This document shows, in pieces, positions 3,868 to 49,191 of a stretch of DNA of 64,000 nt. How positions within the stretch are numbered: position 1 is the first letter of the stretch; each line of letters starts with the position of its first letter. Origin of the DNA: Lineus longissimus. Its lineage: Eukaryota > Nemertea > Pilidiophora > Heteronemertea > Lineidae. Below the pieces are notes generated by a model. That model did no database searches, was not told where the DNA came from, and was given only the letters and a program-made list of their open reading frames with translations. Position numbers and translations under genes: made by a program. The stretch is taken from the NCBI RefSeq assembly GCF_910592395.1, contig NC_088317.1, positions 2,170,001 to 2,234,000 on the forward strand. Direction: 5' to 3'.

Positions 3868-4160
3868 TTGGCATCGTGTTCAGATGATCGGTCAGAACTA
3901 ATTGTCATATTCGACTAAAAGTAAAATCATTGTCATTTCCATTCAATTCCAAGTGATAACCACCCTAGAGAATTAATTCCCCAGATTGCCGAGAATCAGG
4001 CAGGCCTTCCAGTTTGCCGAGCTTGCCTGTCCTGGTGATAATACGCAGATCTATACAATTTCTGCAATGATGTACTAGATACTAACGCACGTGATACCTA
4101 AGAACATCGTCCAATAATTGGGATTATCAGATTACCTTGTCGGGCAGTAAAGTCCTCTTA

Positions 4161-4332
4161 GTAACCTTCAATCTGCCTGGAGACTGAATATTTCCATCAG
4201 CGACCAGTGGTTCAGAGAGAGTATCCTTCGATCTGCCTGCAGACTGAATATTTCCATCAGCGACCAGTGGTTCAGAGAGAGTATCCTTTGATCTGCTTGG
4301 AGAGTGAATATTTCTATCAGCGACAACTGATT
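4161..4332. repeat. 60-bp tandem repeat, about 2.9 copies
   Basis: Copies start at 4161, 4221 and 4281, exactly 60 bp apart, sharing words such as ATCTGCCTGGAGACTGAATA and CAGCGACCAGTGGTTCAGAG. The third copy is more diverged and breaks off near 4332. A fragment resembling its end reappears around 4449-4490. Confidence 0.85.
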
Positions 4333-5413: not shown

Positions 5414-8400
5414 ATGAGAGCTGTCACATTAGTCTGCATCGTTCTCGTACTGGGTGTTGGAAACACCAAGGCTGATTTCTTCGATGACCTCTTCGCCCAG
5501 GTCCTGAAGCCAACTGCTGAACAGATTGTTCAGGCCGGCCAGAATGCCCTTCTCCAACTCCTCGAACAAGGCGTTCTCTCAAATCTCGGAAAGCGCGGCG
5601 TTGACTTCGACCCCGTCAAGCTCCAGGCCTTCCTCGACAAGGCCAGGGAGGTCCTCGGTGAAAAGTTCGAGCCCCTGAAGGAGACCATCCTTGAGGGATA
5701 CAAGGAGCTCATCGAATTCGCCCAGAACGTCAACTCTCTCTCCTGGGTGAACAAGGGGATGACCAAGCGTGACCTCCACAATGCTCTCGATGTGATCGTC
5801 AGTAAGTTTTTGTTTTAAAGTATCACATTCACCTTGTCTACTTCTCTGTGGGTAAAGGTATCGGTTCGCCTCGTCAACGCAATAGAAACAAGGTTATTTC
5901 ATTGCAGTGTTTGAGGGGTATATGGTAGTATGAAAAAAAGCTAAACGTTGCCAAACGTCCCTCAAAATAAGATAGTCCGTCTATTGTATCATCAAAGTGC
6001 CATTATTATCAAATAGCCAGGTTATCCGCCTACAAAGGCTCGGTGTTGAACGCTTGCATGGAGCCTTGATACCACATGTATGTATGTTCCCTAAAATTCA
6101 GACTTATTTCTTCAACGCTTGTCGGACGCTTTTAATTCCCTTGTTTTATTATTTCAAATTTAGAGACACACCAGAGCAAACTCCGCGATGTCTGGACAGA
6201 TCTTTTGGGAAACCTCGGAAACATGGGAATCGGCCTCCTCGGACAGACTGTCGCCACTGGTCTTGGTGAACTCCAGAACCTCCTCAACCAGGGAGTTGGG
6301 GATCTCGCCGGAAAGAAGCGTGATGTCTGGACTGACCTCCTGGCCAACCTCGGAAACTCTGGAATCGGCCTTCTCGGACAGACTGTTGCCACTGGTCTTG
6401 GTGAACTCCAGAACCTCCTAAACCAGAATGTTGGAAAGCGTGAACTCGGTACGTATGGTACTCATTCATAAACTCGTCACTTGCCAATATGGTATTAAAC
6501 TGCAATTTAATGCACTTCCTTACCCTTTCAGGTATATAGCATCTAGTTTTTAATTCCAGAACTCCGTGATGCATGGACCGATCTCCTCGGAAACCTCGGA
6601 AACATGGGAATCGGCCTCCTCGGACAAACTGTCGCCACTGGTCTCGGTGAACTCCAGAACCTCCTCAACCAGGGTGTTGGAGACCTCGCTGGAAAGCGTG
6701 AAGTCCGTGATGCTTGGACCGACCTTCTCGGCAACCTTGGAAACATGGGAATCGGCCTCCTCGGACAGACTGTAGCCACTGGTCTCGGCGAACTCCAGAA
6801 CCTCCTCAACCAGGGTGTTGGAGACCTCGCTGGAAAGCGTGAAGTCCGTGATGTCTGGACTGACCTTCTCGCTAACCTCGGAAACATGGGAATCGGCCTC
6901 CTCGGACAAACCGTCCAGACTGGTCTCGGTGAACTCCAGAACCTCCTCAATCAGGGAGTTGGAGACCTCGCTGGAAAACGTGCGGAGGACATCAGTATGT
7001 ATTTAATCATAAGTTTCCAAAATACCTTCACGAATATTGACGGAATTCTATTTGACACCACACCAAAGAAAAACTGTAGACTTTGCGCGAACATCTTTGA
7101 TTCAGAATTTATTTAAACCTACAGCATTACGACTCGTATTAAAATTCTGATGCATCAAGTTGCTTTTCACAAAATGATTTTTGCAGCCCTTGCCGATATC
7201 GAGTCCCGTATTGCCCCAGTTGTCGCCGCCGTCGGTGCCGGGGTTGCCGCTAACGTTATCGCCCCACTCCTCAACCAGGGAATCGGTGCTATTGGAGATG
7301 CCCTTGGCGGGCTCTTTGGAAAGCGTGACTTGGGTAAGTCTAGTCTGGCCTCGAAGTCCTCATGTAGGTCTACCTATTCATTTGTGAACTTCGAACTTGG
7401 AATTGGTATCGCCAGGGGGTTCTAGCCAGCCAAGGAAATAGTGCTATTGGCGACGTTCTTGAGATCTTTTTGAAATCGAGATCTCAGTAGTATTACATGT
7501 ACTTCAACAAATACATGTAATAGGATTTCAGATTTTGCTCCATATTAAACAGAACATGGGGTATAGTCGTCATTCAAAAACCTCAGTCACTTCATTTATG
7601 AATTTCACCTTCAGCTGACATCGAAGCTCGTATTGCCCCAGTTGTCGCCGCCGTCGGTGCCGGAGTTGCCGCTAACGTCATCGCCCCACTCCTCAACCAG
7701 GGAATTGGTGCTATTGGAGATGCCCTCGGTGGCCTCTTCGGAAAGCGTGATGTTGGTAAGAACAAACTACTAAGTCCTCAGGCAGATCTCGAAAAGTCAC
7801 CATTCGTGGGATCAGTCGTTAATTGAAGACAATCAGATAGTAACCGGGTCGGCCAAGCGAAATTGTCCCAAGCAGCCGATAGAATGACGTCTCTCTCTAC
7901 TATCTCACAGCACAGCCGTTACGAGGATCTCTTTGAGCACTGTCTCAAACTAAATTCAGTTTTACATTCTCCTAAAGGCGTGGTGTACTTTGCAAACGTG
8001 TCAAACTATTCAAAGACTAGTTCTACAATCAAAAGCAGGTAGATATACTGTTAAATGCATCGCTTTTATCAATTCTTAGATCCTCGTATCGCCCCAGTTG
8101 TCGTAGCTGTCGGTACCGGTGTTGCCGCAAACGTTATTGCCCCACTCGTCAACCAGGGAATCAATGCCGTTGGAGGCCTCATCGGTGATCTCTTCGGCAA
8201 GCGTGACCTTGGTAAGTCAAAAGAATCATACATGTAAAAAGGTCCATCATGCCGTTTTCCAACTGCGGAAGCAACGGGTGGGTTTTGCTCAGATTTTGAT
8301 ACGAAAACAAGAACGTGGTGTTTTTTTCTTGTTCGCATCATAAAGTCAAGTTTTTGTTTTGGTTTATTATTTCTAGACATACAAGACATTTAAAACCCAA

Positions 8401-11400
8401 GATAACTAAGAAAAGCTTTGATAAAAGTTCCAGTGTAATAGGTCTTTGAGCTCTATCGAATCGACTCCCAAGAAGAGTAGTGTAAGAAAAGTAGGTCACA
8501 GACCATGTTGGAAGTCTGAGAAAGAAACCTACATGTGATGAATTTACTGATTAAGCCAAATGCTTTGTGTTGATCAACTCTCCAAATGCCAATTCGACTA
8601 TTTCCAGAAGACTTCGAAGCCCGCATTGCCCCAGTTGTCGTCGCCGTCGGTGCCGGAGTTGCCGCTAACGTTATCGCCCCAATCCTAAACCAGGGCATCG
8701 GTGCTATTGGAGATGCCCTTGGCGGTCTCTTTGGAAAGCGTGACCTGGGTAAGTTGTGACTGGGCCCAAAGTTATCAGTGGCTGACATCTACCACCCTAC
8801 AATGGATCTCTGTACACAACATCTCGCGCCATCGCACTAACCAAGTAATTAAACAGGCTTCCCTCCATTTTTTCTTCAAAGATTATCAAATCTCAATTCC
8901 AATTTCATTATTTTCAGATCTTGCTGAATTCGAAGCCCGTATCGCACCAGTAATCGTCGCCGTCGGTGCCGGTGTAGCTACCCAGCTCATTTCCCCACTC
9001 GTCAACCAGGGAATCGGTGCTATTGGAGATGCCCTTGGCGGTCTCTTTGGAAAGCGCGACTTGGGTAAGTTCGGTCTTGGCTCAGAGTCCCAAATGGCTG
9101 ATAAGTAGCATCCTAACAACGGATCTCTTGACATAACTTTACGTGCCATCGTCATAACCAAGTAAACCACTAGGGCAATTTCCATTTTTTAATGAAAAAA
9201 TCATTCAACCTGAATTCTGATTTCATGATTTCAGATCTTGCCGAATTTGAAGCTCGTATTGCCCCAGTTGTCGTCGCTGTCGGTGCCGGAGTTGCCGCTA
9301 ACGTCATCGCCCCAATCCTAAACCAGGGCATCGGTGCTATTGGAGATGCCCTTGGCGGTCTCTTTGGAAAGCGTGACCTGGGTAAGTTGTGACTGGGCCC
9401 AAAGTTATCAGTGGCTGACATCTACCACCCTACAACGGATCTCTGGACACAACATCTCGCGCCATCGCACTAACCAAGTAATTAAACAGGCTTCCCTCCA
9501 TTTTTTCTTCAAAGATTATCAAATCTCAATTCCAATTTCATTATTTTCAGATCTTGCTGAATTCGAAGCCCGTATCGCACCAGTAATCGTCGCAGTCGGT
9601 GCCGGTGTAGCTACCCAGCTCATTTCCCCACTCCTCAACCAGGGAATCGGTGCTATTGGAGATGCCCTTGGCGGTCTCTTTGGAAAGCGCGACTTGGGTA
9701 AGTTCGGTCTTGGCTCAGAGTCCCAAATGGCTGATAAGTAGAATCCAAACAACGGATCTCTGGACATAACTTTACGTGCCATCGTCATAACCAAGTAAAC
9801 CACTAGGGCCATTTCCATTTTTTTATGAAAAAATCATTCAACCTGAATTCTGATTTCATGATTTCAGATCTTGCCGAATTTGAAGCTCGTATTGCCCCAG
9901 TTGTCGTCGCTGTCGGTGCCGGAGTTGCCGCTAACGTCATCGCCCCAATCCTAAACCAGGGCATCGGTGCTATTGGAGATGCCCTTGGCGGTCTCTTTGG
10001 AAAGCGTGACCTGGGTAAGTTAAGACTGGGCCCAAAGTTATCAGTGGCTGACATCTACCACCCTACAATGGATCTCTGTACACAACATCTCGCGCCATCA
10101 CACTATCCAAATAATTAAACAGGCTTCCCTCCATTTTTTCTTCAAAGATCATTAAATCTCAATTCCAATTTCATTATTTTCAGATCTTGCTGAATTCGAA
10201 GCTCGTATTGCTCCAGTTGTCGTCGCCGTCGGTGCCGGTGTAGCTACCCAGCTCATTTCCCCACTCGTCAACCAGGGCATCGGTGCTATTGGAGATGCCC
10301 TTGGCGGTCTCTTTGGAAAGCGCGACTTGGGTAAGTTCGGTCTTGGCTCAGAGCCCCAAATGGTTGATAAGTAGCATCCTAACAACGGATCTCTGGACAT
10401 AACTTTACGTGCCATCGTCATAACCAAGTAAACCACTAGGGCCATTTCCATTTTTTTATGAAAAAATCATTCAACCTGAATTCTGATTTCATGATTTCAG
10501 ATCTTGCCGAATTTGAAGCCCGTATTGCCCCAGTTGTCGTCGCTGTCGGTGCCGGAGTTGCCGCTAACGTCATCGCCCCAATCCTAAACCAGGGCATCGG
10601 TGCTATTGGAGATGCCCTTGGCGGTCTCTTTGGAAAGCGTGACCTGGGTAAGTTGTGACTGGGCCCAAAGTTATCAGTGGCTGACATCTACCACCCTACA
10701 ATGGATCTCTGGACACAACATCTCGCGCCATCGCACTAACCAAGTAATTAAACAGGCTTCCCTCCATTTTTTCTTCAAAGATCATTAAATCTCAATTCCA
10801 ATTTCATTATTTTCAGATCTTGCTGAATTCGAAGCCCGTATTGCTCCAGTTGTCGTCGCCGTCGGTGCCGGTGTAGCTACCCAGCTCATTTCCCCACTCG
10901 TCAACCAGGGAATCGGTGCTATTGGAGATGCCCTTGGCGGTCTCTTTGGAAAGCGCGACTTGGGTAAGTTCGGTCTTGGCTCAGAGTCCCAAATGGCTGA
11001 TAAGTAGCATCCTAACAACGGATCTCTTGACATAACTTTACGTGCCATCGTCATAACCAAGTAAACCACTAGGGCCATTTCCATTTTTTTATGAAAAAAT
11101 CATTCAACCTGAATTCTGATTTCATGATTTCAGATCTTGCCGAATTTGAAGCTCGTATTGCCCCAGTTGTCGTCGCTGTCGGTGCCGGAGTTGCCGCTAA
11201 CGTCATCGCCCCAATCCTAAACCAGGGCATCGGTGCTATTGGAGATGCCCTTGGCGGTCTCTTTGGAAAGCGTGACCTGGGTAAGTTGTGACTGGGCCCA
11301 AAGTTATCAGTGGCTGACATCTACCACCCTACAATGGATCTCTGTACACAACATCTGGCGCCATCACACTATCCAAATAATTAAACAGGCTTCCCTCCAT

Positions 11401-13680
11401 TTTTTCTTCAAAGATCATTAAATCTCAATTCCAATTTCATTATTTTCAGATCTTGCTGAATTCGAAGCTCGTATTGCTCCAGTTGTCGTCGCCGTCGGTG
11501 CCGGTGTAGCTACCCAGCTCATTTCCCCACTCGTCAACCAGGGAATCGGTGCTATTGGAGATGCCCTTGGCGGTCTCTTTGGAAAGCGCGACTTGGGTAA
11601 GTTCGGTCTTGGCTCAGAGTCCCAAATGGCTGATAAGTAGCATCCTAACAACGGATCTCTTGACATAACTTTACGTGCCATCGTCATAACCAAGTAAACC
11701 ACTAGGGCCATTTCCATTTTTTATGAAAAAATCATTCAACCTGAATTCTGATTTCATGATTTCAGATCTTGCCGAATTTGAAGCTCGTATTGCCCCAGTT
11801 GTCGTCGCTGTCGGTGCCGGAGTTGCCGCTAACGTCATCGCCCCAATCCTAAACCAGGGAATTGGTGCTATTGGAGATGCCCTTGGCGGTCTCTTTGGAA
11901 AGCGCGACTTGGGTTAGTTTCTAAGATATTATACGTTCTCTAGATGCAAATATGTAAAACACTTTCTTAATATTCATTGGTCATTTTCGATGACGCATGG
12001 AGTCGTTGGATATCAATTCTAACCGCTGATCTTCAATTTTTCCGTAATATCCGTTGATGTTAATCATTCACTTATTTTAGCCACCGCTGAGGCCAAGCTC
12101 CGTGGCATCTGGTCTGACATCCTTAATGTTATCGGACAAGTTGCCCCAGTCGTTATCCAAACCATCCCAACCATCATTTCCGCTGTCGGCAAACGCGATC
12201 TCGGTACGTTACTAGGCTTCTGTCCACAAATGCAATTTCCTCCAATATCTCCAGCCATGAGCCAATGCATCACACAGTACAGTGCAGTACACTGTAGTCC
12301 GGCACTGCAGTTCTTGGGGAGGCAAATGCACTTCAAGGCATTTTCTCAGAGTAATTTAAGTGAAATCCTAAAATTCGGCTGAATAGAAAGGAATAAATGC
12401 TATTTTGGCGAGGGCACAATCATGTGAAAAGGGAGGTAAATTGATGGCATTCACAAATCGCGGTATTGTTAGTAGTTTATTTTTCTCTAAAATGATGGGC
12501 AAATTATTGTATTGAATTTTTCATTGAGCCAATTTTGATAATTTTTAGCACAAGCCCGTGATGCTTGGACCGACCTTCTCGGAAACCTCGGAAACATGGG
12601 AATCGGCCTCCTCGGACAGACTGTAGCCACTGGTCTCGGCGAACTCCAGAACCTCCTCAACCAGGGAGTTGGAGACCTCGCTGGAAAGCGTGAAGTCCGT
12701 GATGCATGGACCGACCTCCTCTCCAACCTCGGAAACATGGGAATCGGCCTCCTCGGACAAACCGTCCAGACTGGTCTCGGTGAACTCCAGAACCTCCTCA
12801 ACCAGGGAGTTGGAAACCTCGGAAAGCGTGATCTTACCAACACCATTACCACTGCCCTTCAACCACACATTGACAACGCCGTCGCTGTACGTATAGTTTT
12901 TCTGTTTTCTACCGATTCGGGAGGGGGAGGAGGGTTGGCTGTTCGACTTCAATGCTGTTTCACCCTGATTGCTAAAATTACTTTCAAATAGCAGCAGTAT
13001 CAAGTTGGCAACAGTTGTCAGCATTTGACACATTTCCCCTTGCATTCTCAAGATTGCCGGTCAGGTTGGAAACACCATCCAGGGCCACGTGAACAACCTG
13101 TGGAACACCGTCCAGTCCATCGGTCAGCTCCCTGACAAGCTCCAGACCCACGTTGATACCATCACCGGACACGTACAGAACATCATCGGACACGGAACCA
13201 ACGCCGTCTCCTCCATCCAGGATGTCGTCACTGACATTCTCAGTAAGTACTATTTGACGAAATGAACCAGGAATTAGGCCAGTATTCCTTCATGTGTTTG
13301 TAGCAACTCCTATACATCACATGTACAGTGTACATGTGCACGTCGATGTGTCAAGGAACTTGCAATATTTCAGTAGATTCATATGTCGAAGCAACGCACC
13401 GGGTATGAAAAAATACGGGACTTGTTATCAAGTCCATAACCAATGCATTTGTAATCTGCCCATGTGCAACAGCCATAACCAGTAATTTTGAAATAACAGT
13501 CCTCTGAAACTCGAAAGCGACCTTGGAAATTAAGATATATGAATCAAATTGAGATATGTCTTTTGAAAATTTCCAGACCAGACCTTTCAGAACATCGGCT
13601 CCAACGTGCAAGGAATCGTCTCAACCGGAGGTGACGCCGTCAACACTGCCATCAACCACGTCTCCGGAGGCGGAAACTAA
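5414..13680 (+). CDS. Secreted multi-peptide precursor (gene A), 21 coding exons
   Basis: Coding exons: 5414-5801, 6164-6448, 6560-6994, 7187-7333, 7615-7755, 8080-8211, 8608-8748, 8918-9064, 9235-9381, 9551-9697, 9868-10014, 10184-10330, 10501-10647, 10817-10963, 11134-11280, 11450-11596, 11766-11912, 12081-12203, 12549-12886, 13053-13242, 13577-13680. They join in frame to 1297 residues. It starts with a 20-residue signal peptide (MRAVTLVCIVLVLGVGNTKA). Then come 24 dibasic KR sites, 23 preceded by Gly (GKR, once GKKR), the cleavage-plus-amidation signal of secreted peptide precursors. Peptide types: WTDLLGNLGNMGIGLLGQ units; EARIAPVVVAVGAG...GIGAIGDALGGLFGKR units (14 copies, one per exon); one KLRGIWSDILNVIGQ unit; and a C-terminal tail of about 116 residues without KR. 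Nearly all introns are phase 1. There is no cysteine in the repeats. The glycine-zipper-like helices suggest membrane or surface activity, which is inference. I recognise no family. Confidence 0.85.
8608..11912 (+). repeat. 633-bp higher-order tandem repeat carrying two exons per unit
   Basis: Unit starts are at 8608, 9235, 9868, 10501, 11134 and a partial one at 11766. Spacings are 627, 633, 633, 633 and 632 bp. Each unit holds a 'b' exon (GVAANVIAPILNQ), its intron, an 'a' exon (GVATQLISPL) and its intron. Exons and introns are nearly identical between units, so the duplication is recent or homogenised. The a and b halves are also homologous to each other, which implies an older single-exon duplication beneath the two-exon one. 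Confidence 0.95.
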
Positions 13681-13718
13681 GAATAATTCATCCGTTGACG
13701 TGTACTGACTTACTACGC

Positions 13719-13724
13719 AATAAA
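13719..13724 (+). terminator. Polyadenylation signal of gene A
   Basis: AATAAA lies 39 bp after the TAA stop of gene A, the usual distance for a short 3' untranslated region. Confidence 0.75.
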
Positions 13725-14510
13725 ACATATTAAATGAAATTTAGTGTTTTTGGTACTTAGTTCATGTTTTGTATTGAAAAACACCAATCAAACCTAGGTT
13801 GTGACACATAAATTGCCCTCTACATGTATACACATCAATGGCATTTAAGCACTGTACATAAACCATGGTTTCGTGACAAGTCCTGGGCATATACTGGGTT
13901 TGCTAAAAGCGCGACATTTGGCGTTTTCAAAAGTCAACGAATTCTTGCCTACCTGGCAATGCCTCCTGATTTGCCTATAAACCCTCTTAATAGCCGTCAC
14001 ATGCGACGATGAAGCGATCACGGTATCTGGACCAAGGGATACGGCATGGTTGAGATTTTCGAGAGACTATTCCGACACACAAATACACCACCAAAATGCC
14101 ACCCACTCGACCGAAACTCGACCCAAACTTTCCGCCATGCACTTGATAAACCTATCGTATATACCTGCGTGTAAAGAGCTGGCATGCTTGGGAAGGGACA
14201 GGATGGCTGGCGCCATACGATAAAGTAATATAGCACGCATGTTATCAGTCACGTTAACGCAGCATGCGCACGGCCGTGTACATGTAAAAAAAGTATTGAT
14301 TATCAATGATTTACATTGAGCAGAAAGGGTCCCGGGAAAAAAAGGAGTTAGAACAACGGTTTTAAAAACGCTCCAAAGAAATTGTACACAGATGTAGCAG
14401 ACATAACCATACATACCTCCCATTCTTGAACACTCTACACTATGCATGCTTGGATGACGAAATCGGCTGCGTTTGGAGAGTACATGTATGACGCACGGGA
14501 CTAGACACAA
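13725..14510. other. Intergenic sequence, nothing recognised
   Basis: Non-coding sequence between gene A and the decayed paralogue. Frames here are short and lack splice or domain support. Confidence 0.5.
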
Positions 14511-15229
14511 CAACCTGTGGAACACCGTCCAGTCCCTCGGTCAGCTCCCTGACAAGCTCCAGACCCACGTTGATACCATCACCGGACACGTATACAGAAC
14601 ATCATCGGACACGGAACCAACGCTGTCTCCTTCATCCAAGAAGTAGTCACTGATATTCTTAGTTATATTACAAGTTACTTGACCCCAACCACCGCTGAAC
14701 AGACCAGTTGCTAGCTGTATGACCTGCGAAGGAGTTGGGAGACAAAAAGCATATTTTTGCCATATCAAGGGGAAAATGAGGCATAGATCATAACTCATTT
14801 TTTTAGGGATCCTTGGCATTTGTGAAGGTTTCTTCAATGATTAACAGCTTCCTCCACTCGCGGTAATAGGGAGTTTTCACAAATCCCCTGAAACGCCATC
14901 CCGAACGCTTGTATCATTGTTTGACCTCCTCAAAACGAAGGAGAACAATCGTATAGGAGTTCACGTGGACGTTTCGGGGGCTTTGCGAAAACCACACCCT
15001 ACTCAACAAAGCTTAGTGATGCAAATTACATGTTGTTATGCAACCCCTTTTGATTTGGTGCAAAAGTGTGTCCCGTAATGCAGATTCTAAAGTGCCATAT
15101 TGTTCCTACTTCAGACCAGACCTCCCAGAACATCGGCTCCAACAAAGTTCAAAGAATCGTCTCAGCCGGAGAGTCGTAAGTGATGCAGTTAACACTGCAA
15201 TCAACTACGTCTCTGGAGACGGAAACTGA
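14511..15229 (+). pseudogene. Decayed 3' end of a third multi-peptide precursor gene
   Basis: 14511-14665 matches the penultimate exon of genes A and B (NLWNTVQSLGQLPDKLQTH), but a 2-bp insertion turns ACGTACAGAAC into ACGTATACAGAAC and breaks the frame. 15115-15229 matches the last exon, with its acceptor TTCAG kept, several changes (an inserted AGTTCAA-like stretch and a GTAAGTGAT insertion) and a TGA in place of the TAA. A polyadenylation signal AATAAA follows at 15259. No 5' exons remain. It lies between A and B, so the cluster once had at least three members. Confidence 0.8.
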
Positions 15230-15264
15230 ACAGTAATATTCTGTAGAAATAATCGTCGAATAAA

Positions 15265-16015
15265 TTGCATGAAATAAAAACTATAAGATTTTGTGTTTTT
15301 GACTTTCTGACTAAGGGCGCCTACTATATATAAGGATTAATACGTCTGGCTTGTAAACCGCTCTCAAGAGAACCAAACGCTCCAAAAATGGATGAACCCG
15401 AAGGGACTAAGAAGTGTTGTTGTTGAGGTTTTTGAGGTTCTGCACAAACTCCTTATTTGAAGTACAAACTGAGAACCAAAATGGGGATAAACCAGGAACA
15501 GTAAATTGGCATTGGCATAACTACGCATCAGACAGTATGAGAAAACCGTGTTTTGATGACCTCACTAATCTAGGTCAATATCGAATCGAGAGATATCAAC
15601 ACATACTCCTCGCGCATGACCGTAACTGTAATTATTGATGACGTCGTTTCTTCCCTGCTTGAATTTGCCGCCATTTTGTGAATTCATCCCCAAAGGAAGT
15701 ACGAAGCTCTACCACTGTGGCTACTTTCAGTCCCATTGCATTGTAAGAACATCAATGAATAATGTACAGTGATTTACAATATGGAAGTTGATACTGGCAG
15801 AGATCAAATGCTTGAAAAGTAAGTGTGCTTGGAGAATGAAATTGCTTTTTATCATCTCGCTAACTATCGCAAACACGTGCGACATTCACGCCCACTGTTG
15901 CACACTCGCAATCAAGGCCAAACCCTTCTGGTAATCTCTCAAATCTAAAGCGATAAAAATGGTTGTAAAATCTATCAAAATCCTCTGGGAAACAACACAT
16001 CGGCTAATGTAACCT
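15265..16015. other. Intergenic sequence upstream of gene B
   Basis: No coding or repeat signal that I can support. The core promoter of gene B begins at its right edge. Confidence 0.5.
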
Positions 16016-16077
16016 TATATAAAATGACCCAGCAACATTTTCAGGAATCATTTCATTGCGACTCGTTGGCAGCTAAG
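16016..16077 (+). promoter_or_regulatory. TATA box and non-coding first exon of gene B
   Basis: TATATAAAA at 16016-16024 is followed by a probable start near 16045 and an untranslated exon ending at 16077 (GCAGCTAAG before GTAGGT). The coding exon begins at 16236 after the acceptor CTTCCTTCCAG. Confidence 0.7.
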
Positions 16078-16245
16078 GTAGGTGTAGCATCGAAATCGGC
16101 GATGGAATAAAACTATACCATCTATACAATGTCATTTTCTTTATGCGAATTTTCATTCAATACCGGTACTATTTAGTTGTAATTTCCTTCAGTTTCCCTT
16201 TCAGTTTCATTCATTTCCTCTTTTCTTCCTTCCAGAACTGTCAAA

Positions 16246-19200
16246 ATGAAAGCCGCAGCTTTAGTATGTGTCGTCCTCATGCTCGGCGTTGGAAACACCA
16301 AGGCCGATTTCTTCGATGATCTCTTCGCCCAGGTCCTGAAGCCAACTGCTGAACAGCTGGTTCAGGTCGGCCAGAATGCCCTCCTCCAACTCCTCCAACA
16401 AGGCCTCATCAGCGGACTCGGAAAGCGCGGCGTTGACTTCGACCCCGTCAAGCTCCAGGCCTTCCTCGACAAGGCCAAGGAGGTCCTCGGTGAAAAGTTC
16501 GAGCCCCTGAAGGAGACCATCCTTGAGGGATACAAGGAGCTCATCGAATTCGCCCAGAACGTCAACTCTCTCTCCTGGGTGAACAAGGGTGTGACCAAGC
16601 GCGATCTTCACAATGCCGTCGACATGATCGTTGGTGAGCAATCTCTACTTTGCACAGATTCTGTCCCTGTTTCACTTCACAGCCAAGATATCATGCGATT
16701 AAAGTAAAGGGCTGATTCACCTTCAAATTATCAAATTCGTTTCGCAAGTGGTTGGCTCTGTACGCAAAAATGCTGAAAGTTTCTCGGCAGATTTAACGGT
16801 GTTTCGCTTCAAACTGCTTGCGACACAAGACACGGAATTGTCGAACGCTAGTCTCAACGATATTTTAAGTTGATCTCCAAAAATGATGTTATTACAAACT
16901 TTCTCTATGATATCTAAGTCATCATGTCATCTAAATGACACAATGTGTTTTTTTGCAGCCAAAAACCAGGGGAAACTCCGTGATGCCTGGACCGATCTCT
17001 TGGGAAACCTCGGAAACATGGGAATCGGCCTCCTCGGACAGACTGTCGCCACTGGTCTTGGTGAACTACAAAACATTCTCAACCAGGGAGTTGGAAATCT
17101 CGGAAAGCGTGAACTTCGTGATGCATGGACCGACCTTCTCGCTAACCTCGGAAACATGGGAATCGGCCTCCTCGGACAAACCGTCCAGACCGGTCTCGGT
17201 GAACTCCAGAATCTCCTCAACCAGAATGTTGGAAAGCGTGAACTCGGTAAGTCTATTTTATTCCATTGAAATTGTTATCTCAAATTCCTTAAAGCTAAAA
17301 AGTACCACTGATTTCAGTGGTTGCGCCCACTGGATCCACAAAACTTGGAGATTTCTGAAAACGCAAGCACATTCCGATTAGAATCGTATATTGCATCCTC
17401 CCATAGCCGCTTCATAGCTAAGATGCACTCAAGTGTGAGTGTAGAAACGATGCAAGTGCGAGGAAGTTGAGGACAGTAGGTTGCAATGAACTCTCCCCCA
17501 CTTATTAGGCTCAGGTAAATCGCGAAGAAACAGCTTTGCGTATTTGCTAATCTTCAATTGGTGTTGGACCAAATGGATATTGAGATGGCTGCCAAAACTT
17601 ATCTACAAATAAGCGCTCACGCGGCGCATATCGCATGCAACGCTTATGTAGAGATAAGACTGATGCAATGACCCATATATCAATGTACTCGATATCATCA
17701 CACACATACTTTTGTTATTTTCAACAACAGAACTCCGTGATGCTTGGACTGACCTCCTCTCCAACCTTGGAAACATGGGAATCGGCCTCCTCGGACAAAC
17801 CGTCCAGACTGGTCTCGGTGAACTTCAGAACCTCCTCAACCAGGGAGTTGGAAACCTCGGAAAGCGTGAAATCGGTAAGCTCATCAGAAAATATATTCAG
17901 TCTTCTCAAGATTTTTCTCTAACGCATTATTTTAAATGCATTTGGTTTATTTTGTTCAGTGGATATTTTTAGGAATATGAGGGGCAGATACGTTGATTTG
18001 TTTGAATGTAATCACCTTGAATGCAATTTCATTATCAACTGAGCGTCACTGCGAAGTTTTGACATTTTCTCTTCCTCTCTCTCAGATCCTCGTATCGTCA
18101 TCTCCGGACCCCTGATCGCCATCGGGACTGGTCTTGCCACTGGCGTCCTTACCCCACTCATCAACCAAGGAATCAGCGCCATCGGCGACGCCCTCGGTGG
18201 TCTATTTGGAAAGCGTGATCTTAGTGGTAAGAACCAATTCCCCAATTTAATCTGCATTAAAGCGTGTAACGTGCGTTCCGGAAGATCCGGTGTAGTTCTA
18301 TTTAATCGTTTTGCCTATAGCAAAAAAACCTCGCCTCCTACCCCTCTCAGAAGGACTGAATTCTCGGTATCTAATCGGTAGTAAAATTACCTAATTAACG
18401 AAATGATACTAATACATTTTCAGCTATTGATGAGGCTAAGCTCCGTGACATCTGGTCCGACATCCTCAATGTTATCGGACAAGTTGCCCCAGTCGTTGTC
18501 CAAACCATCCCAACCATCATCTCCGCTATTGGCAAACGTGATCTTGGTAGGTGTATCATTACAATTTTGTTTGTTTGAAGAGTTGATTCAAAGTAGTTTA
18601 TATCCTAATAGAAATGTTCGCTACATTTTCGTAACTTTGGCCATGCAATGGTTGAGAAAAAAAAGACTACTAATAATTTTTTGCATTGTAAGATCACGTC
18701 GAAGTTTTCATGTTCAAATGATTTTTTTTGTGTCACAAGCCAAACCTACAAGAATTATTTAATATCTACTTTTACCAATCATCCGATATTCAGCTCTTGA
18801 TGAGGCAAAGCTCCGTGACATCTGGTCTGACATCCTCAATGTTATCGGACAAGTTGCCCCAGTCGTCGTCCAGACTCTCCCGACCATCATCTCCGCTATT
18901 GGCAAACGCGATCTTGGTAGGTGTATCATTACAAGCCTAATCTCTGGCAAGAAATACGGCCCTCCTACCCCTCTCAACTTCAGCTCTTGATGAGGCCAAG
19001 CTCCGTGACATCTGCTCTGATATCCTCAATGTTATTGGGCAAGTTGCCCCCGTCGTTTTATTCCAGACCTTCATCTCCATTAATGCCGAGCGCGATCTCG
19101 GCACGTTTTGTGTTCTAAACTATCGGACTAGATGATCTTCACTTAAGGCTATATGATTTCTCAATTTTAGCACAAGCCCGTGACGCATGGACCGATCTCC

Positions 19201-21466
19201 TCGCTAACCTCGGAAACATGGGAATCGGCCTCCTCGGACAAACCGTCCAGACTGGTCTCGGTGAACTCCAGAACCTCCTCAACCAGGGAGTTGGAAACCT
19301 CGGAAAGCGTGAAATCGGTAAGCTCATCAGAAAATATATTCAGTCTTCTCAAAATTCTTCTCTAACGCATTATTTTAAATGCATTTGGTTTATTTTGTTC
19401 AGTGGATATTTTTAGGAATATGAGGGGCAGATACGTTGATTTGTTTGAATGTAATCACCTTGAATGCAATTTCATTATCAACTGAGCGTCACTGCGAAGT
19501 TTTGACATTTTCTCTTCCTCTCTCTCAGATCCTCGTATCGTCATCTCCGGACCCCTGATCGCCATCGGGACTGGTCTTGCCACTGGCGTCCTTACCCCAC
19601 TCATCAACCAAGGAATCAGCGCCATCGGCGACGCCCTCGGTGGTCTATTTGGAAAGCGTGATCTTAGTGGTAAGACCCTATTCCCCAAATCTGCATAAAA
19701 GCGTGTCACATGCGTTTCGGAAGATCCGGTGGAGTTCTATTTAATCGTTTTGCCTATAGCAAGAAAAACCTCCCCTCCTACCCCTCTCAGAAGGAATTCT
19801 CAGTATCTAATCGGTAGTAAAATTACCTAATTAACGAAATGATACTAATACATTTTCAGCTATTGATGAGGCCAAGCTCCGTGACATCTGGTCCGACATC
19901 CTCAATGTTATCGGACAAGTTGCCCCAGTCGTTGTCCAAACCATCCCAACTATCATCTCCGCTATTGGCAAACGTGATCTTGGTAGGTGTATCATTACAA
20001 TTTTGTTTGTTTGAAGAGTTTATTCAAAGTAGTTCATATCATAACAGAAATGTTCGCTACAATTTCGTAACTTTGGCCATGCAATGGTTGAGAAAAAAAG
20101 ACTACTATTAATTTTTTGTATTGTAAGATCACGTCGAAGTTTTCATGTTCAAATGATTTTTTTGTGTCACAAGCCAAACCTACAAGAACAATCTAATATC
20201 TACTTTTACCACTCATCCGATATTCAGGTATTGATGAGGCCAAGCTCCGTGGCATATGGTCTGACATCCTCAATGTTATCGGACAAGTTGCCCCAGTCGT
20301 CGTCCAGACTCTCCCGACCATCATCTCCGCTATTGGCAAACGCGATCTTGGTAGGTGTATCATTACAAGCCTAATCTCTGGCAAGAAATACGGCCCTCCT
20401 ACCCCTCTCCACTTCAGCTCTTGATGAGGCCAAGCTCCGTGACATCTGCTCTGATATCCTCAATGTTATTGGGCAAGTTGCCCCCGTCGTTTTATTCCAG
20501 ACCTTCATCTCCATTAATGCCGAGCGCGATCTCGGTACGTTTTGTGTTCTAAACTATCGGATAAGCTCGATGAATGATTTTAAAGAGCTGCATCAGAACC
20601 AAGTCGTTCTCGGTTTATTCAGATGATCTTCACTTCAGGCTATATGATTTCTCAATTTTAGCACAAGCCCGTGACGCATGGACCGATCTCCTCGCTAACC
20701 TCGGAAACATGGGAATCGGCCTCCTCGGACAAACCGTCCAGACTGGTCTCGGTGAACTCCAGAACCTCCTCAACCAAAGTGTCGGAAAGCGTGACCTAAC
20801 CAACACCATCTCTACTGCTCTTCAGCCACATATTGATAATGCCGTCGCTGTAAGTTTATTCTTTTCTGTGCTGAACTTACTGTAGAGATTGCAATAAGTC
20901 CGTGACCGCCACGCGAAATCAGAAGAGGCCTCCAGAGGCTGCTCGTATATGTGTGACCGGTAGCACTACCAGCAACAATGCATATCTTAGACCCTCGATT
21001 TCTATCTTTTTGTCGCGATGCATTTTTATTAATACAGCCTGTGCATGCATTGTTGTTTCAGATTGCCGGTCAGGTTGGAAACACCATCCAGGGCCACGTG
21101 AACAACCTGTGGAACACCGTCCAGTCCCTCGGTCAGCTCCCAGACAAGCTTCAGACCCACGTTGATACCATCACCGGACACGTACAGAACATCATCGGAC
21201 ACGGAACCAACGCCGTCTCCTCCATCCAAGATGTTGTCACTGATATTCTCAGTAAGTCGCAATTTGAATTTCTATCACGTTGGCTGTCTATATTCTCTCA
21301 TTAACTTAAGCTATCTGGCCATCTTGCCTCCTTTTTATCGTCTAATTTGCTTGGCATTTCAGACCAGACCTTCCAGAACATCGGGTCCAACGTCCAAGGA
21401 ATCGTCTCAACCGGAGGTGACGCCGTCAACACTGCCATCAACCACGTCTCTGGAGGCGGAAACTAA
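16246..21466 (+). CDS. Secreted multi-peptide precursor (gene B), 15 coding exons
   Basis: Coding exons: 16246-16633, 16959-17246, 17731-17874, 18086-18226, 18424-18546, 18794-18916, 18984-19100, 19171-19317, 19529-19669, 19860-19982, 20228-20350, 20418-20534, 20662-20849, 21062-21251, 21363-21466. Joined they give 818 residues. The signal peptide, first exon and C-terminal tail closely match gene A. Twelve GKR sites and one TKR remain. Gene B has few glycine-zipper units (RIVISGPLIAIGTGLATGV) and more of the KLRDIWSDILNVIGQVAP type. The exons at 18984 and 20418 have lost their dibasic site (AER instead of GKR) and gained a cysteine (DICSDI), and the first of them has a GC donor (GCACGT), so they may be skipped. 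All internal introns except the one before the tail are phase 1. Same inferred processing as gene A. Confidence 0.85.
17731..20661 (+). repeat. Tandem duplication of about 1.45 kb inside gene B
   Basis: 17731-19170 (five exons) is repeated at 19171-20661. Exons and introns match nearly base for base, and corresponding exon starts are 1434-1443 bp apart. The second copy has about 50 extra bases before the next exon (around 20562-20622). The duplication added five phase-1 exons without disturbing the frame. Confidence 0.9.
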
Positions 21467-22598: not shown

Positions 22599-25500
22599 CT
22601 ATTCTTGTTCCTCCGGGATCGTAGTTGACCCATTCTCCTTTATTTCACTATTTTTTCCCTTTAATTTGCCAGCCATCCGCATCGCCTGGAAGGCCCTGAT
22701 TACCTTGATTGGCCGAAGCAGCTTCTGTCGAATGTGTTCCACCTTTTCTATAACCACGTGGTTATCAGGGTCAATGTCCATAGACTTCGGATTGTCAATC
22801 TCTTTCGCTTTTAGGAAGCCTCGCTTTATAGCCTCCCCCACGTACATCTTCTCACCCGTCACATTGTCATTATAGGCGCCACTGGCCCTGTCAATCAAAC
22901 CAATCAGAGTCGCTTGCTTGAACGAAATACGGCGCTTTAACCGCCTGTCAACTACGGCATTGATGATGTACGACTTTGATGTCTCTTGCGGTTCTTCGTC
23001 CTCCTCGTCACCACTTTCTGCGTCTACGTCAGCGAAAACCAACTTCCGATTGACTGCTTCTGAGATGAGCATTTCATTCCCTGATTTCGGATTTTTGTAA
23101 ATGGAGCAGGTCTCGTCTAAAATGTGCTGCGCGAGGGCTTCGTCTTTCTGTAACATTTTACCGGTGACTGGGTGAACCACACAGCTTACGTGGTACTTCT
23201 TCGACTTCGTTGGGTGCTTATGTCTGATCGTGACTAACCCAAGGGAATGGGCCCGATCCTCCTTTTTCGTAGCAGTCTGGAAAGTCACAACGATCCTCCC
23301 ATCATTCATAGCCTCGGGGATCGGACAGCGCTCTCCTGTCGAGATGTCAACATACTCGCCATTACCCTGGTCAAGGATGCCGTACTGGCATGCATCCTTC
23401 ATCGAGATTACTTCACCATTTCTCGGGTCGATGACACCTTCTATGAAGAACCGCCTGCGTTCCTCACCACTCTGATTTGTGATCTGTTCCGACTCCGCTG
23501 TCTCCGACTGTTCACCAAAGGAGAAGTCTGAGTATTCGACACTACCGGCGCTGCTGGGGGTCATGGGCGACTCGGGAATGTAGGTCACTTCTTCCACGCG
23601 TTGGATTTCTTTGGTAATGTACGTCACTTCCCAGAACCTGAAATTAGAAAACACAAACAAACTAAAGGAATGACATCATCAAGAACCCAAAATTTGATGA
23701 ATAAAAATGAGAAAATTTAACGAAACTGTCGGTTGTTCCAGCAGCAAGCAGCTTGGTCAATGAATTTCTAACGACAATGCGATATCCGCTCTCAAAATGC
23801 CACTTCGTTATCGCTATCAAAATCTGAATCTCTATTATCGCCACAAATTCTCATTCTCTCACCGTCTTATTCTGGTTCCCTCGTCCGATTTGGGCCCGAC
23901 ATTCATGCGCAGGACCTGCAGCCCTCCCTGTGGATCGTATTCGAGGTTATTATTAGTCTTCTTCAGGTCGTCGACCATTGACTGAAAGAAATACATGTGT
24001 TAGGTCCTTGAATGGCATTTCGTCGATGATTTCACGAAGTAACCAATCAGCACATTTTTCATTTTGAGAAAACTCCACTCAAAGATTCCGGAAAGTTTAA
24101 ATGACTCTGTGCATTACATATGTACGAGTATACGAAATGCATGAATAGAGGGTAAAACTGCAGGCTGGTCACTTTGTTGCGAAAGGCTTAACCAATACCC
24201 TTTTAACTTTCTTTGGTTCTCCTTCGAATGAAAAGAATTAGACAATGGCCTTAACAGAGACTGGTTTGTTCATACCAACAGCTTATGGTCATATAATCAA
24301 CTATTAGCATTGAGCTCTTCTGTGTGTATGTGCCACTTACTAATCCCTTCCTTGATCTTGGGACAATGGCATTGCGTTATAATGCCTCTCAACTCGCAGT
24401 TAAAATAGTTCAGCCTTGCCCAATACGTGGTCTATTCTCTTTAAACAAAGCCCACTCGTACCCAGGCCTAAATTCCCATTGTTCTTCTGTCTTATCAAAG
24501 GGCCACCATGGCGAATCTTGGTAACATCGACCCCCACGAAACGGCTTCCAGGCCTACATCGGCAAGGGTATATGAACTCAATGGGACGATCCGAAGGGGA
24601 AAGAGCGCATACTTTTGCACCACACTTACCTTGTACTGTTCCATGATGTTGGAGAGGACCGAAAATTCATCGCGCATCTCCTGACTTGCAGTTCTGTCAG
24701 CTGAAAGAAGGACATATGCTTTGCTTGCAATTGACTTAAATAGGTCATTGGCCGCTTGGTACGGGCGCACAGATTACCAAATTTGATACTGCTCAACGTC
24801 CTCAGGTGAAGCAAGAAGCATGTTTTGCTTTTAGGCTCATTGACATCTTCAAGATGGAGGGATGGTGACTGTAAAGTTCACATTGCCCATCAATTTACCT
24901 GTTCCATCACCAGACCCCATGGAAGCACGGACCATCAGACTTCTGATAGCGCCAAGCAGTTCCTCTTGGCCATCAACATTAGTCAGGTGACTGTTTGCAA
25001 CGCCCTCTAACGTGCTTAGTGTACCCTGTAGAGATTCCTTCAAACCGTTGTCAGAACTCTGGAGAATTTCGCGCTGGAATGAAAGAATGTGAGCCCAGGT
25101 AAGCCCAAACTTCGCCGCCGAGAATTGGTGAATCAGATAATTTGTTAGTGCCATTTCATGATGGTTCCCGCTTAGTCACAGTGCAACTATACATGTACAC
25201 CATCGATGTGCTCACTGCCCATAGGAAACTGCCAGTGCCCCAAACTTGGCGCCCCTGTCTGGTAACAACTTTAAAAGGATCGTCACATCACTTAACAGAG
25301 TCGACCATCTCTTACCTTTTCCTCCTTAACATTTGTAAGATGTGTGGTCAAGAAGCTGACGAGACTTTCGGTGGCGATCTTTGTGGTCCGAAAGAGGGCG
25401 TCATTCAACTTGGTGTGAAGTCTGTAAACGAGAGACATTGCTGTTTATTTAACAATGTATCAAAAGACTGCAAATTAAATTTTCGTAGTGAACTACGATA

Positions 25501-41185: not shown

Positions 41186-42584
41186 GTGGCCTCTTGTAGG
41201 TTACCGAGGCAGGGATTGGTTCGAGCCGAGGGTATCTAGTGTGGATGCTGCTGGCAGATAGGTGGCCTCTTGTAGCTTACCGAGGCAGGGATTGGTTCGA
41301 GCCGAGGGTATCTAGTGTGGATGCTGCTGGCAGATAGGTGGCCTCTTGTAGGTTACCGAGGCAGGGATTGGTTCGAGCCGAGGGTATCTAGTGTGGATGC
41401 TGCTGGCAGATAGGTGGTCTCTTGTAGGTTACCGAGGCAGGGATTGGTTCGAGCCGAGGGTATCTAGTGTGGATGCTGCTGGCAGATAGGTGGCCTCTTG
41501 TAGGTTACCGAGGCAGGGATTGGTTCGAGCCGAGGGTATCTAGTGTGGATGCTGCTGGCAGATAGGTGGTCTCTTGTAGCTTACCGAGGCAGGGATTGGT
41601 TCGAGCCGAGGGTATCTAGTGTGGATGCTGCTGGCAGATAGGTGGTCTCTTGTAGGTTACCGAGGCAGGGATTGGTTCGAGCCGAGGGTATCTAGTGTGG
41701 ATGCTGCTGGCAGATAGGTGGTCTCTTGTAGCTTACCGAGGCAGGGATTGGTTCGAGCCGAGGGTATCTAGTGTGGATGCTGCTGGCAGATAGGTGGCCT
41801 CTTGTAGCTTACCGAGGCAGGGATTGGTTCGAGCCGAGGGTATCTAGTGTGGATGCTGCTGGCAGATAGGTGGCCTCTTGTAGCTTACCGAGGCAGGGAT
41901 TGGTTCGAGCCGAGGGTATCTAGTGTGGATGCTGCTGGCAGATAGGTGGTCTCTTGTAGCTTGCCGAGGCAGGGATTGGTTCGAGCCGAGGGTATCTAGT
42001 GTGGATGCTGCTGGCAGATAGGTGGCCTCTTGTAGCTTACCGAGGCAGGGATTGGTTCGAGCCGAGGGTATCTAGTGTGGATGCTGCTGGCAGATAGGTG
42101 GTCTCTTGTAGGTTACCGAGGCAGGGATTGGTTCGAGCCGAGGGTATCTAGTGTGGATGCTGCTGGCAGATAGGTGGTCTCTTGTAGCTTACCGAGGCAG
42201 GGATTGGTTCGAGCCGAGGGTATCTAGTGTGGATGCTGCTGGCAGATAGGTGGCCTCTTGTAGCTTGCCGAGGCAGGGATTGGTTCGAGCCGAGGGTATC
42301 TAGTGTGGATGCTGCTGGCAGATAGGTAGTCTCTTGTAGCTTGCCGAGGCAGGGATTGGTTCGAGCCGAGGGTATCTAGTGTGGATGCTGCTGGCAGATA
42401 GGTGGCCTCTTGTAGGTTACCGAGGCAGGGATTGGTTCGAGCCGAGGGTATCTAGTGTGGATGCTGCTGGCAGATAGGTGGTCTCTTGTAGGTTACCGAG
42501 GCAGGGATTGGTTCGAGCCGAGGGTATCTAGTGTGGATGCTGCTGGCAGATAGGTGGTCTCTTGTAGCTTGCCGAGGCAGGGAT
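41186..42584. repeat. 76-bp minisatellite, about 18.4 copies
   Basis: The word TCGAGCCGAGGGTATCTAGT recurs every 76 bp from 41221 to 42513. Units differ at a few sites only (GGCCTCT or GGTCTCT; TAGGTTACC, TAGCTTACC or TAGCTTGCC), and the variants are interspersed along the array, as expected from unequal exchange or conversion. The last unit overlaps the final coding exon of the minus-strand gene (42528-42661). Units with GCTTACCGAG read CTCGGTAAGC on the minus strand, a donor-like word. Confidence 0.97.
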
Positions 42585-47876: not shown

Positions 47877-48447
47877 CGAGAGAAGCATCGCCGCACTAAA
47901 TATTTAGAGTCTAGACGTTAACTTCATATAAATGAACTGATTCCAAGAGAACCTGGCGATTCTGTGAGCCGGAAACTTGAACATGGAAAATGTTGCCAAA
48001 TTTGTTCAACAGAATTTGTATCCATTTTGGTCGCCGTTTAAACTTAATATCAACAGTTAACTGTTAAAGTTTCATTTCTAAATTTGGGGTGATGTTTTTT
48101 GTTTGTGCGCACACAACTTTAACTGCATGCTTGATATGTACATTCAATGCAAATTTAGAAATAGGCAGTGCAAATGCAATTTGAGGATTGCCCAATACAT
48201 CAACAAATATCTCATTGGGTTGCTTCAAGGTCATAATCTGATTTTGAACTTCATGTATCGGATTCAGAGAATAAAGCTTCGAAATCATGTTGTCTGTTCT
48301 CATTTGCTTTGAAGAAATGACAAGGTATTTCAAGAAGGATTGTGGAACAGTAATAGCTGAGTGAACTCCTCGCAGGTAAAACGAGTAGAGCGTAGCGAGT
48401 CTAACGACTGTTTCAGGGCTATGTATGACTGAAATATTGAAGAGTGC
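47877..48447 (-). pseudogene. Duplicated fragment of the unrecognised gene at 697-1275
   Basis: This matches 697-1275 at roughly nineteen bases in twenty, in the same orientation. The minus frame reads VIHSPETVVRLATLYSFYLR and so on, but a CAA codon has become TAA, stopping translation after NLEMKL. The copy breaks off sharply at 48447, where it joins a copied promoter segment, so the open frame running into 48522 is a chimera and not a real gene start. Confidence 0.85.
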
Positions 48448-49191
48448 TTGATATTTATCTTTCTCCTTTGTTAGTACCTCTCCCCCCAACCTCTCAGCCC
48501 TTCGCGAACGGAAGGCGAGCATGCTTGCAATCGCTGTGGCACATGCTTAGTCTCCCCGAAAAGTGCCATAGGCCCAAGTTTGAAAATCCCGTTAAGATCC
48601 ATTTCAATTTCAATTTAAGATCCATTTCAATCCATTTACAATATTAACTAGTTGCTTATAGAGTTGCTGTTTCAGCATCTTCGACAACAATCTTTCAAGA
48701 ATCTTGTAAAGATAATAATCTTATAAGATATAATTGGAATTTTCGACCTGGGGCGGACATGCTTGCGGTCGTTTCAGACTTGAAATTCGACGTGGCAGTC
48801 ATATCAGCACTATTAGAATATGCAACAGCTGTTTATTAAAATAATCAGATTCTGGCGTCTATAGTCTGCATCTATATAGCAAACTGTTTACGATGCAGTG
48901 TAGAATTATATGAATACATTTCAATGGCATTACTTTGATTACCCTTAAACATCTGTTTTAGTAGCGTTGTGTGGTATGGTATAGATCTGAGCTTATTCAT
49001 TTCCTTCGAGTTAAGTCCAAGGTAGGTAGGTGTTCCTTTTGTTTTGGATTTTTCTGGTATCGTCAAGTTTTGAAGTTTCTTTATGAAAGATCTTCGAGGT
49101 ATTTTTAGTGTTGCAGACTAATCATGTCGTCATGTTTGATTTCATTCATTTGCGTCCCTGTGATTCTTTATCCTTTACCCTTTTTTTTAGT
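48448..49191 (+). repeat. Duplicated promoter segment of the lysine-rich gene
   Basis: 48448-48600 matches 44424-44576 and 48779-49191 matches 44608-45014, with about 180 extra bases between. The copied part includes the untranslated exon and its donor (TCCAAGGTAGGT) but stops just before the coding exon. The TATA box has changed to TGTTTTAG, so it is unlikely to work as a promoter. Confidence 0.8.

Follow-up and report, generated by a model that had tools for sequence, protein, structure and literature searches.

In a 64,000-nucleotide stretch of the genome of the ribbon worm Lineus longissimus (assembly GCF_910592395.1, contig NC_088317.1, positions 2,170,001 to 2,234,000 of the forward strand; hereafter the window, to which all coordinates refer), we found two tandem genes, A and B, that appear to encode precursors of long, helical, amidated peptides. 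Both lie on the + strand; the ATG of A is at 5414 and the stop codon of B ends at 21466. A preliminary description of this DNA had placed two genes here with 23 and 12 Gly-Lys-Arg (G-K-R) sites, which proved right once the exons were spliced. Gene A (5414-13680) comprises 21 exons and encodes 1297 amino acids with 22 GKR and one GKKR, and gene B (16246-21466) comprises 14 exons and encodes 779 amino acids with 12 GKR; both spliced frames are open. Splice sites were set by hand from AG/GT boundaries and the open reading frame (ORF), and signal peptides were called by inspection. AG/GT is found at every boundary used, with a weaker donor (GTTAGT) after A exon 17. Of the non-first exons, 17 of 20 in A and 10 of 13 in B have a length divisible by three and an entry phase of 1.

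Both chains run from a signal-peptide-like start through a first unit closed by GKR, a spacer ending in TKR and many further GKR units to a tail of 116 amino acids that ends in SGGGN. Besides the first unit of each gene (N), we distinguished W (12), P (16) and S units (6, one of them decayed), and 33 of the 35 G-K-R-closed units belong to these three repeated types. In gene A, exon 1 (5414-5801) holds the start codon, the putative signal peptide (about 20 amino acids), the first unit with its GKR at 5588 and the spacer. Exon 2 (6164-6448) encodes two W-type units, closed by GKKR and GKR, and exon 3 (6560-6994) encodes three. These are followed by one P-type unit in each of exons 4-7 (7187-7333, 7615-7755, 8080-8211 and 8608-8748), by ten P-type exons spaced at about 316 bp (exons 8-17, 8918-11912), by one S-type unit (exon 18, 12081-12203) and by two W-type units with the start of the tail (exon 19, 12549-12886). 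The remainder of the conserved, predicted helical tail and the stop codon TAA lie on exons 20-21 (13053-13242 and 13577-13680). In gene B, exon 1 (16246-16633) carries the putative signal peptide, the first unit and the spacer, and exons 2-3 (16959-17246 and 17731-17874) carry three W-type units. Exons 4-7 encode a P (18086-18226), two S (18424-18546 and 18794-18916) and a W unit (19171-19317), exons 8-10 a P (19529-19669) and two S units (19860-19982 and 20228-20350). Exon 11 (20418-20534) is a decayed S unit that has lost its G-K-R, exon 12 (20662-20849) joins a W-type unit closed by GKR to the start of the tail, and exons 13-14 (21062-21251 and 21363-21466) complete the tail and end in TAA. 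Between the two genes lies a decayed tail copy on the + strand with internal frame changes (14509-15226, in the pieces 14509-14663 and 15114-15226). It alone stood out when further gene copies were sought in the window; the rest were weak matches to Lys-rich stretches and one match of 24 residues.

These models were compared with those of RefSeq. The last 699 residues of LOC135495028 (P0001) are identical to gene B without exons 6 and 11 (18794-18916 and 20418-20534), and 12 of the 14 hand-placed exons agree exactly. P0001 has 16 additional N-terminal residues, the first 13 of which are encoded at 15781-15819 (+) in a putative 5′ exon. LOC135495026 (P0002), one database model of gene A beside which other isoforms may exist, contains exons 1-3, continues into the next intron and stops there. 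Since it omits 18 of the 21 exons, spectra searched against LOC135495026 alone would miss the P and S units of gene A. The read-through from exon 3 into the intron (6560-7116) may represent a genuine short isoform, or the model may be wrong there.

The units are 37-59 residues long. The idea of one peptide per exon holds for 26 of the 30 unit-bearing exons, which encode exactly one G-K-R unit, but not for A exons 2, 3 and 19 (two, three and two units) and B exon 2 (two units). Introns mostly interrupt the frame two codons plus one base downstream of the Lys-Arg (KR) pair, so that the first residues of a mature peptide would come from the preceding exon. The units had been described as glycine-rich, and glycine indeed makes up 15.6% of precursor A and 12.3% of precursor B. 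They had also been described as free of cysteine, which is true of all G-K-R-closed units except the one that contains the decayed B exon 11; the cysteines are one in precursor A (putative signal peptide) and two in precursor B (putative signal peptide and exon 11). As a correction to the earlier description, the units carry a net negative charge of −1 to −6.

Mean ratios of non-synonymous to synonymous substitution rates were 0.17 among W, 0.27 among P and 0.24 among S units and 0.31 for the single pair of N units, averaged over all pairs, which are not independent and include the decayed S unit. These values support purifying selection on the units. In all seven of the hand-chosen exon pairs, the exons are more similar than the introns that follow them. 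Between the two genes, exon 1 shares 89% identity and intron 1 only 66%. A exons 8-17 form a tandem array with a repeat of 633 bp that spans two exons and whose copies are 96.9-97.7% identical. Gene B contains an internal duplication (17735-19297 versus 19178-20788, 92.8% identical) of which exons 8-10 are part. In profile comparisons with hhalign, W and S units are related at their start (87%), and no relation of P to W (5.9%) or S (3.8%) was detected. As judged from these sequences, the precursor has grown through exon duplication, and the locus presents a clear case of exon-unit multiplication in which old units, a recent two-exon array and decayed copies are found together.

When gene B was searched against 5.8 billion proteins, P0001 was the single match. 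A 389-residue query assembled from segments of gene A matched P0002-P0008, and a profile of six relatives added P0009-P0012; P0007 was part of this profile yet missing from its match list. Each search scored only about 8000 word-sharing candidates within the length range, and the absence of the family elsewhere is therefore unproven. The named relatives are a third Lineus gene, P0005 (LOC135495143), and P0008 from Tubulanus polymorphus (Palaeonemertea), so that by these sequence matches all named members of the family found here are ribbon worms. Eight further relatives are JGI proteins, among which the automatic name of P0007 (permease) does not fit. They are 291-420 amino acids long and apparently full length or nearly so, while their contigs measure just 955-1483 bp; given the introns and the 5-kb span of gene B, contigs this short are probably spliced transcripts. 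The six- and ten-relative alignments share one plan, namely a signal-like start, helical segments bounded by KR and a tail with many invariant columns, and in the ten-relative alignment conservation is highest in the tail. By inspection, the Lineus-type members have a hydrophobic N-terminus that closes with T-K-A or A-K-A, and the relatives have a similar one. P0003 contains a single W unit, and the many-unit form of Lineus therefore looks derived. The W units and the Tubulanus-type first units have a common start, R-x-x-W-x-[DE]-L; homology between them is suggestive only, with an hhalign probability of 31%, where two reversed controls reached 2.7% and 9.1%.

The distribution of dibasic pairs argues for cleavage of these proteins. 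Genes A and B together encode 37 KR, no RK, one KK and no RR, where 2.2-2.5 of each would be expected from composition (2.4 for both KR and RK). The ten relatives (P0003-P0012) contain 32 KR, 3 RK, 7 KK and 7 RR against expected numbers of 7.65, 7.65, 30.2 and 1.84, respectively. In these counts neither repeats nor relatives are independent, and the 37 sites of A and B comprise 22 distinct KR contexts. The excess of KR over RK speaks for cleavage, because a linker role would not prefer KR over RK; the deficit of KK could come partly from amphipathic spacing alone. Among six relatives, Tubulanus included, K59-R60 and K177-R178 are invariant. Moreover, Gly precedes KR at 35 of the 37 sites in A and B, once as GKKR. 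The earlier proposal of a convertase-processed precursor, with a KR pattern beyond chance, is thus well supported at the sequence level by the directed KR pairs in A, B and the ten relatives, the scarcity of KK, the conserved KR columns, the purifying selection on units and, in a model of low confidence, the position of KR at or near breaks between helices.

The preliminary description had also held that the units form amphipathic helices, and our predictions agree with it. The whole-length helical moment exceeded that of 1000 shuffles in all six sequences analysed (W, two P variants, S, N and the tail; p 0.000-0.032). From an alignment of 13 of the 16 P units, a P unit was modelled as a single helix with a predicted local distance difference test score (pLDDT) of 90.9. 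The family model based on P0003 is nearly all helix at low confidence (mean pLDDT 49.2), with the KR sites located within or next to helix breaks. The highest hydropathy over 19 residues was 2.08 for P, 1.89 for the P unit of gene B, 1.58 for S and 0.92 for W. Modelling and helical moments support the view that the units are helix-forming and amphipathic.

With a probability of roughly 55%, we consider A and B to be convertase-processed precursors of long, anionic, amphipathic and amidated helices that act at membranes or surfaces. A proprotein convertase would cut after KR, a carboxypeptidase would trim K and R, and an amidating monooxygenase would convert the exposed Gly to a C-terminal amide. 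This would release as many as 23 amidated peptides from A and 12 from B, together with a non-amidated spacer and the tail. Of the resulting anionic helices, P would be hydrophobic enough to enter a membrane, and S would be borderline. They may act jointly, for example as a lytic, foaming or film-forming part of an epidermal secretion, and we infer that action at membranes or surfaces, in soluble form or as an assembled layer, is their likeliest role. More tentatively, and with the odds somewhat against so broad a statement, the family may consist of secreted ribbon-worm polyproteins as old as the phylum whose cleavage yields a mixture of long, anionic, amphipathic helices, mostly amidated in Lineus, that act together at membranes or surfaces. 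In one lineage the units would have increased, one exon at a time, to as many as 23 in a chain, and amidation would have arisen along the way.

Several observations weigh against this reading. At 34 of the 37 KR sites in A and B, the residue after the cut (P1′) is acidic (D or E), which is not the commonest convertase context, and lytic peptides are typically not net negative. In the ten-relative alignment R60 remains invariant and K59 nearly so, but K177-R178 is no longer conserved. Gly stands before KR at only 11 of the 32 sites in the ten relatives as compared to 35 of 37 in A and B, so that cleavage looks old and amidation favoured in the Lineus branch; the proposed amidation is thus supported for the two Lineus genes by their sequences, but not family-wide. 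An 18-residue window, which was used first, gave a weak amphipathic signal (z 1.1-2.9). Furthermore, none of the 31 distinct predicted products lies within 3 Da of the three prominent masses (3308.35, 3260.40 and 6419.00) given in the relevant section on soluble L. longissimus mucus analysed by liquid chromatography-mass spectrometry (LC-MS) (PMC5864730). Since that section describes a desalted soluble preparation, hydrophobic peptides might have been lost. The sections covered of a larval peptidomics study of L. longissimus report 46 peptides confirmed from 18 precursors and five new precursors, and no precursor name given there points to the A/B family (PMC8557429).

Full-text literature searches with unit strings and LOC numbers found no paper, the listings of further topic searches showed none on the family, and nothing like the A/B peptides is mentioned in the passages covered of PMC11768458, PMC9132205, PMC10674772, PMC12846013 and PMC6410017. 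The claim that no described family has these sequences is borne out by Pfam, protein and literature searches alike: the family is real and, as far as could be found, undescribed, in function as in sequence. One of these passages, from a study of Cephalothrix, states that 64% of the proteins secreted with the mucus lack Swiss-Prot annotation (PMC12846013). Much of ribbon-worm secretion is unannotated, and the A/B family offers a concrete, testable candidate class: together the two genes are predicted to yield as many as 35 amidated peptides, for which exact masses were calculated, 4456.46 and 4185.35 (M+H) among them.

A different view of the helices is that the protein stays uncut or is partly cut, that KR pairs are inter-helix linkers, and that the whole chain binds lipid or gels like an apolipoprotein or apolipophorin. 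We consider this unlikely, although domain searches lend it some weight. At E ≤ 0.01, Pfam Apolipoprotein matched 8 of the 10 relatives, Baculo_PEP_C as many and ApoLp-III 6 of 10, and a PDB profile search with the family, run without a reversed control, placed apoA-IV first (E 1e-9), followed by unc-13 (2.6e-5) and a designed bundle. All Apolipoprotein and ApoLp-III scores that were listed singly fall below the Pfam gathering scores, the best of them being those of P0008 (34.2 of 90 bits and 29.5 of 36.3 bits, respectively). Moreover, the Apolipoprotein model matched reversed sequences on par with forward ones in P0008 (E 4e-8 reversed, 2.7e-8 forward) and P0007 (7.9e-7 and 4.7e-6); reversed P0012 matched at 1.2e-5, and P0003 matched forward (0.0067) but not reversed. 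ApoLp-III did favour the forward direction in P0008 (9.2e-7 versus 8.7e-6), P0007 (9.2e-6 versus none) and P0003 (0.0018 versus none), which speaks slightly against our reading of these matches, and the modelled position of KR at or beside helix breaks would also suit linkers. A linker needs basic residues, however, and calls neither for KR in place of RK nor for the Gly found at 35 of the 37 sites. Apolipoprotein homology was held back on account of the reversed P0007 and P0008 matches, the lean of ApoLp-III to forward notwithstanding; we read the matches as probably reflecting shared helix periodicity and not descent, and an action similar to lipid binding is conceivable. Flagellar_rod, the sole Pfam family above cut-off among the relatives (P0008, 24.2 versus 23.4 bits), was taken as a chance match. 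Four single pieces of genes A and B gave no Pfam match above cut-off, and the best E value in a PDB sequence search with joined units was 0.22.

If the chains are cut, the products could instead be receptor ligands released from a neuropeptide or peptide-hormone precursor. The signal-peptide-like start and the many copies closed by GKR fit this, and dibasic cutting is confirmed in L. longissimus by the peptides of the 18 other precursors reported in the larval text (PMC8557429). We nevertheless regard it as improbable: the units are long and of differing types, their C-termini (DLA, NV, SV, NL, GL, LF, AI, AV) provide no shared short active end, conservation peaks in the tail, and the family goes unnamed in that text. 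Doubtful, yet worth more attention, is a structural protein of mucus, tube or granules whose cut units form insoluble helical or amyloid-like layers like those of fungal Rep1. This overlaps with the processed membrane- or surface-active helices that we prefer, as the cutting would be the same and the end use more specialised. Units that are hydrophobic, carry little charge and occur in many copies would suit such layers, and insolubility would account for their absence from soluble mucus LC-MS; P is predicted to be a helix, however, and not a strand. In the part of the literature that covers Rep1, its 37-residue peptides act on the hyphal wall, and a title cited there names surface-active amyloid-like fibrils (PMC6339444).

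Elsewhere in the window, an ORF of 358 amino acids downstream of gene B on the opposite strand (22599-23675, −) matches plectin repeats (PF00681 in Pfam, E 1.4e-16). Two ORFs without a Pfam match (735-1844, − and 48064-48546, −) share a stretch that is nearly alike by eye (LFNISVIHSPETV...) and perhaps belong to a dispersed repeat. We also found a tandem repeat of 60 bp with 2.8 copies (4160-4324), a 76-bp minisatellite with 18.4 copies that are 97% alike (41186-42584), and several long Lys/Ala-rich ORFs of the KKAKK type (58904-63354, +), one of which holds a 360-bp tandem (58922-59590).

Known systems resemble the A/B precursors in single aspects. The units of the skin precursors of pipid frogs (caerulein and magainin of Xenopus laevis) are shorter and mostly cationic. 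Those of A and B, in contrast, measure 37-59 residues, are anionic and of several types, and are accompanied by a conserved long tail; no frog protein was among the matches of the A/B protein searches. In the passages covered, unequal crossing-over is proposed for the frog genes (PMC3731216). Like A and B, the fungal Kex2-processed proteins Rep1 of Ustilago maydis and Ece1/candidalysin of Candida albicans are secreted precursors with KR between units, but no sequence relation appeared among the search matches. Neither amidation nor an exon-per-unit build is known in Rep1 or Ece1. In the excerpts covered, the Rep1 peptides control hyphal wall properties (PMC6339444), and Ece1 yields a membrane-damaging peptide of 31 amino acids (PMC5784256). 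Cytotoxin A-III of Cerebratulus and the parborlysins are nemertean proteins of integument and mucus with a functionally important amphipathic helix that cause membrane lesions, as described in part of PMC6410017. They are, however, single proteins of about 10 kDa with disulfides, and parborlysin has an isoelectric point of 9.1 (same passage), whereas the A/B units are anionic and, the decayed one excepted, free of cysteine; neither was found among the matches of the A/B protein searches. Exchangeable apolipoproteins and apolipophorin III share the amphipathic helical character and the weak Pfam and PDB profile matches, but the A/B units are bounded by KR and the Apolipoprotein model matches largely irrespective of sequence direction. 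The neuropeptide precursors of L. longissimus, as presented in the sections covered of PMC8557429, have a signal peptide, dibasic sites and amidation, which are also predicted for A and B; the A/B units differ in being long and helical, with no short conserved end.

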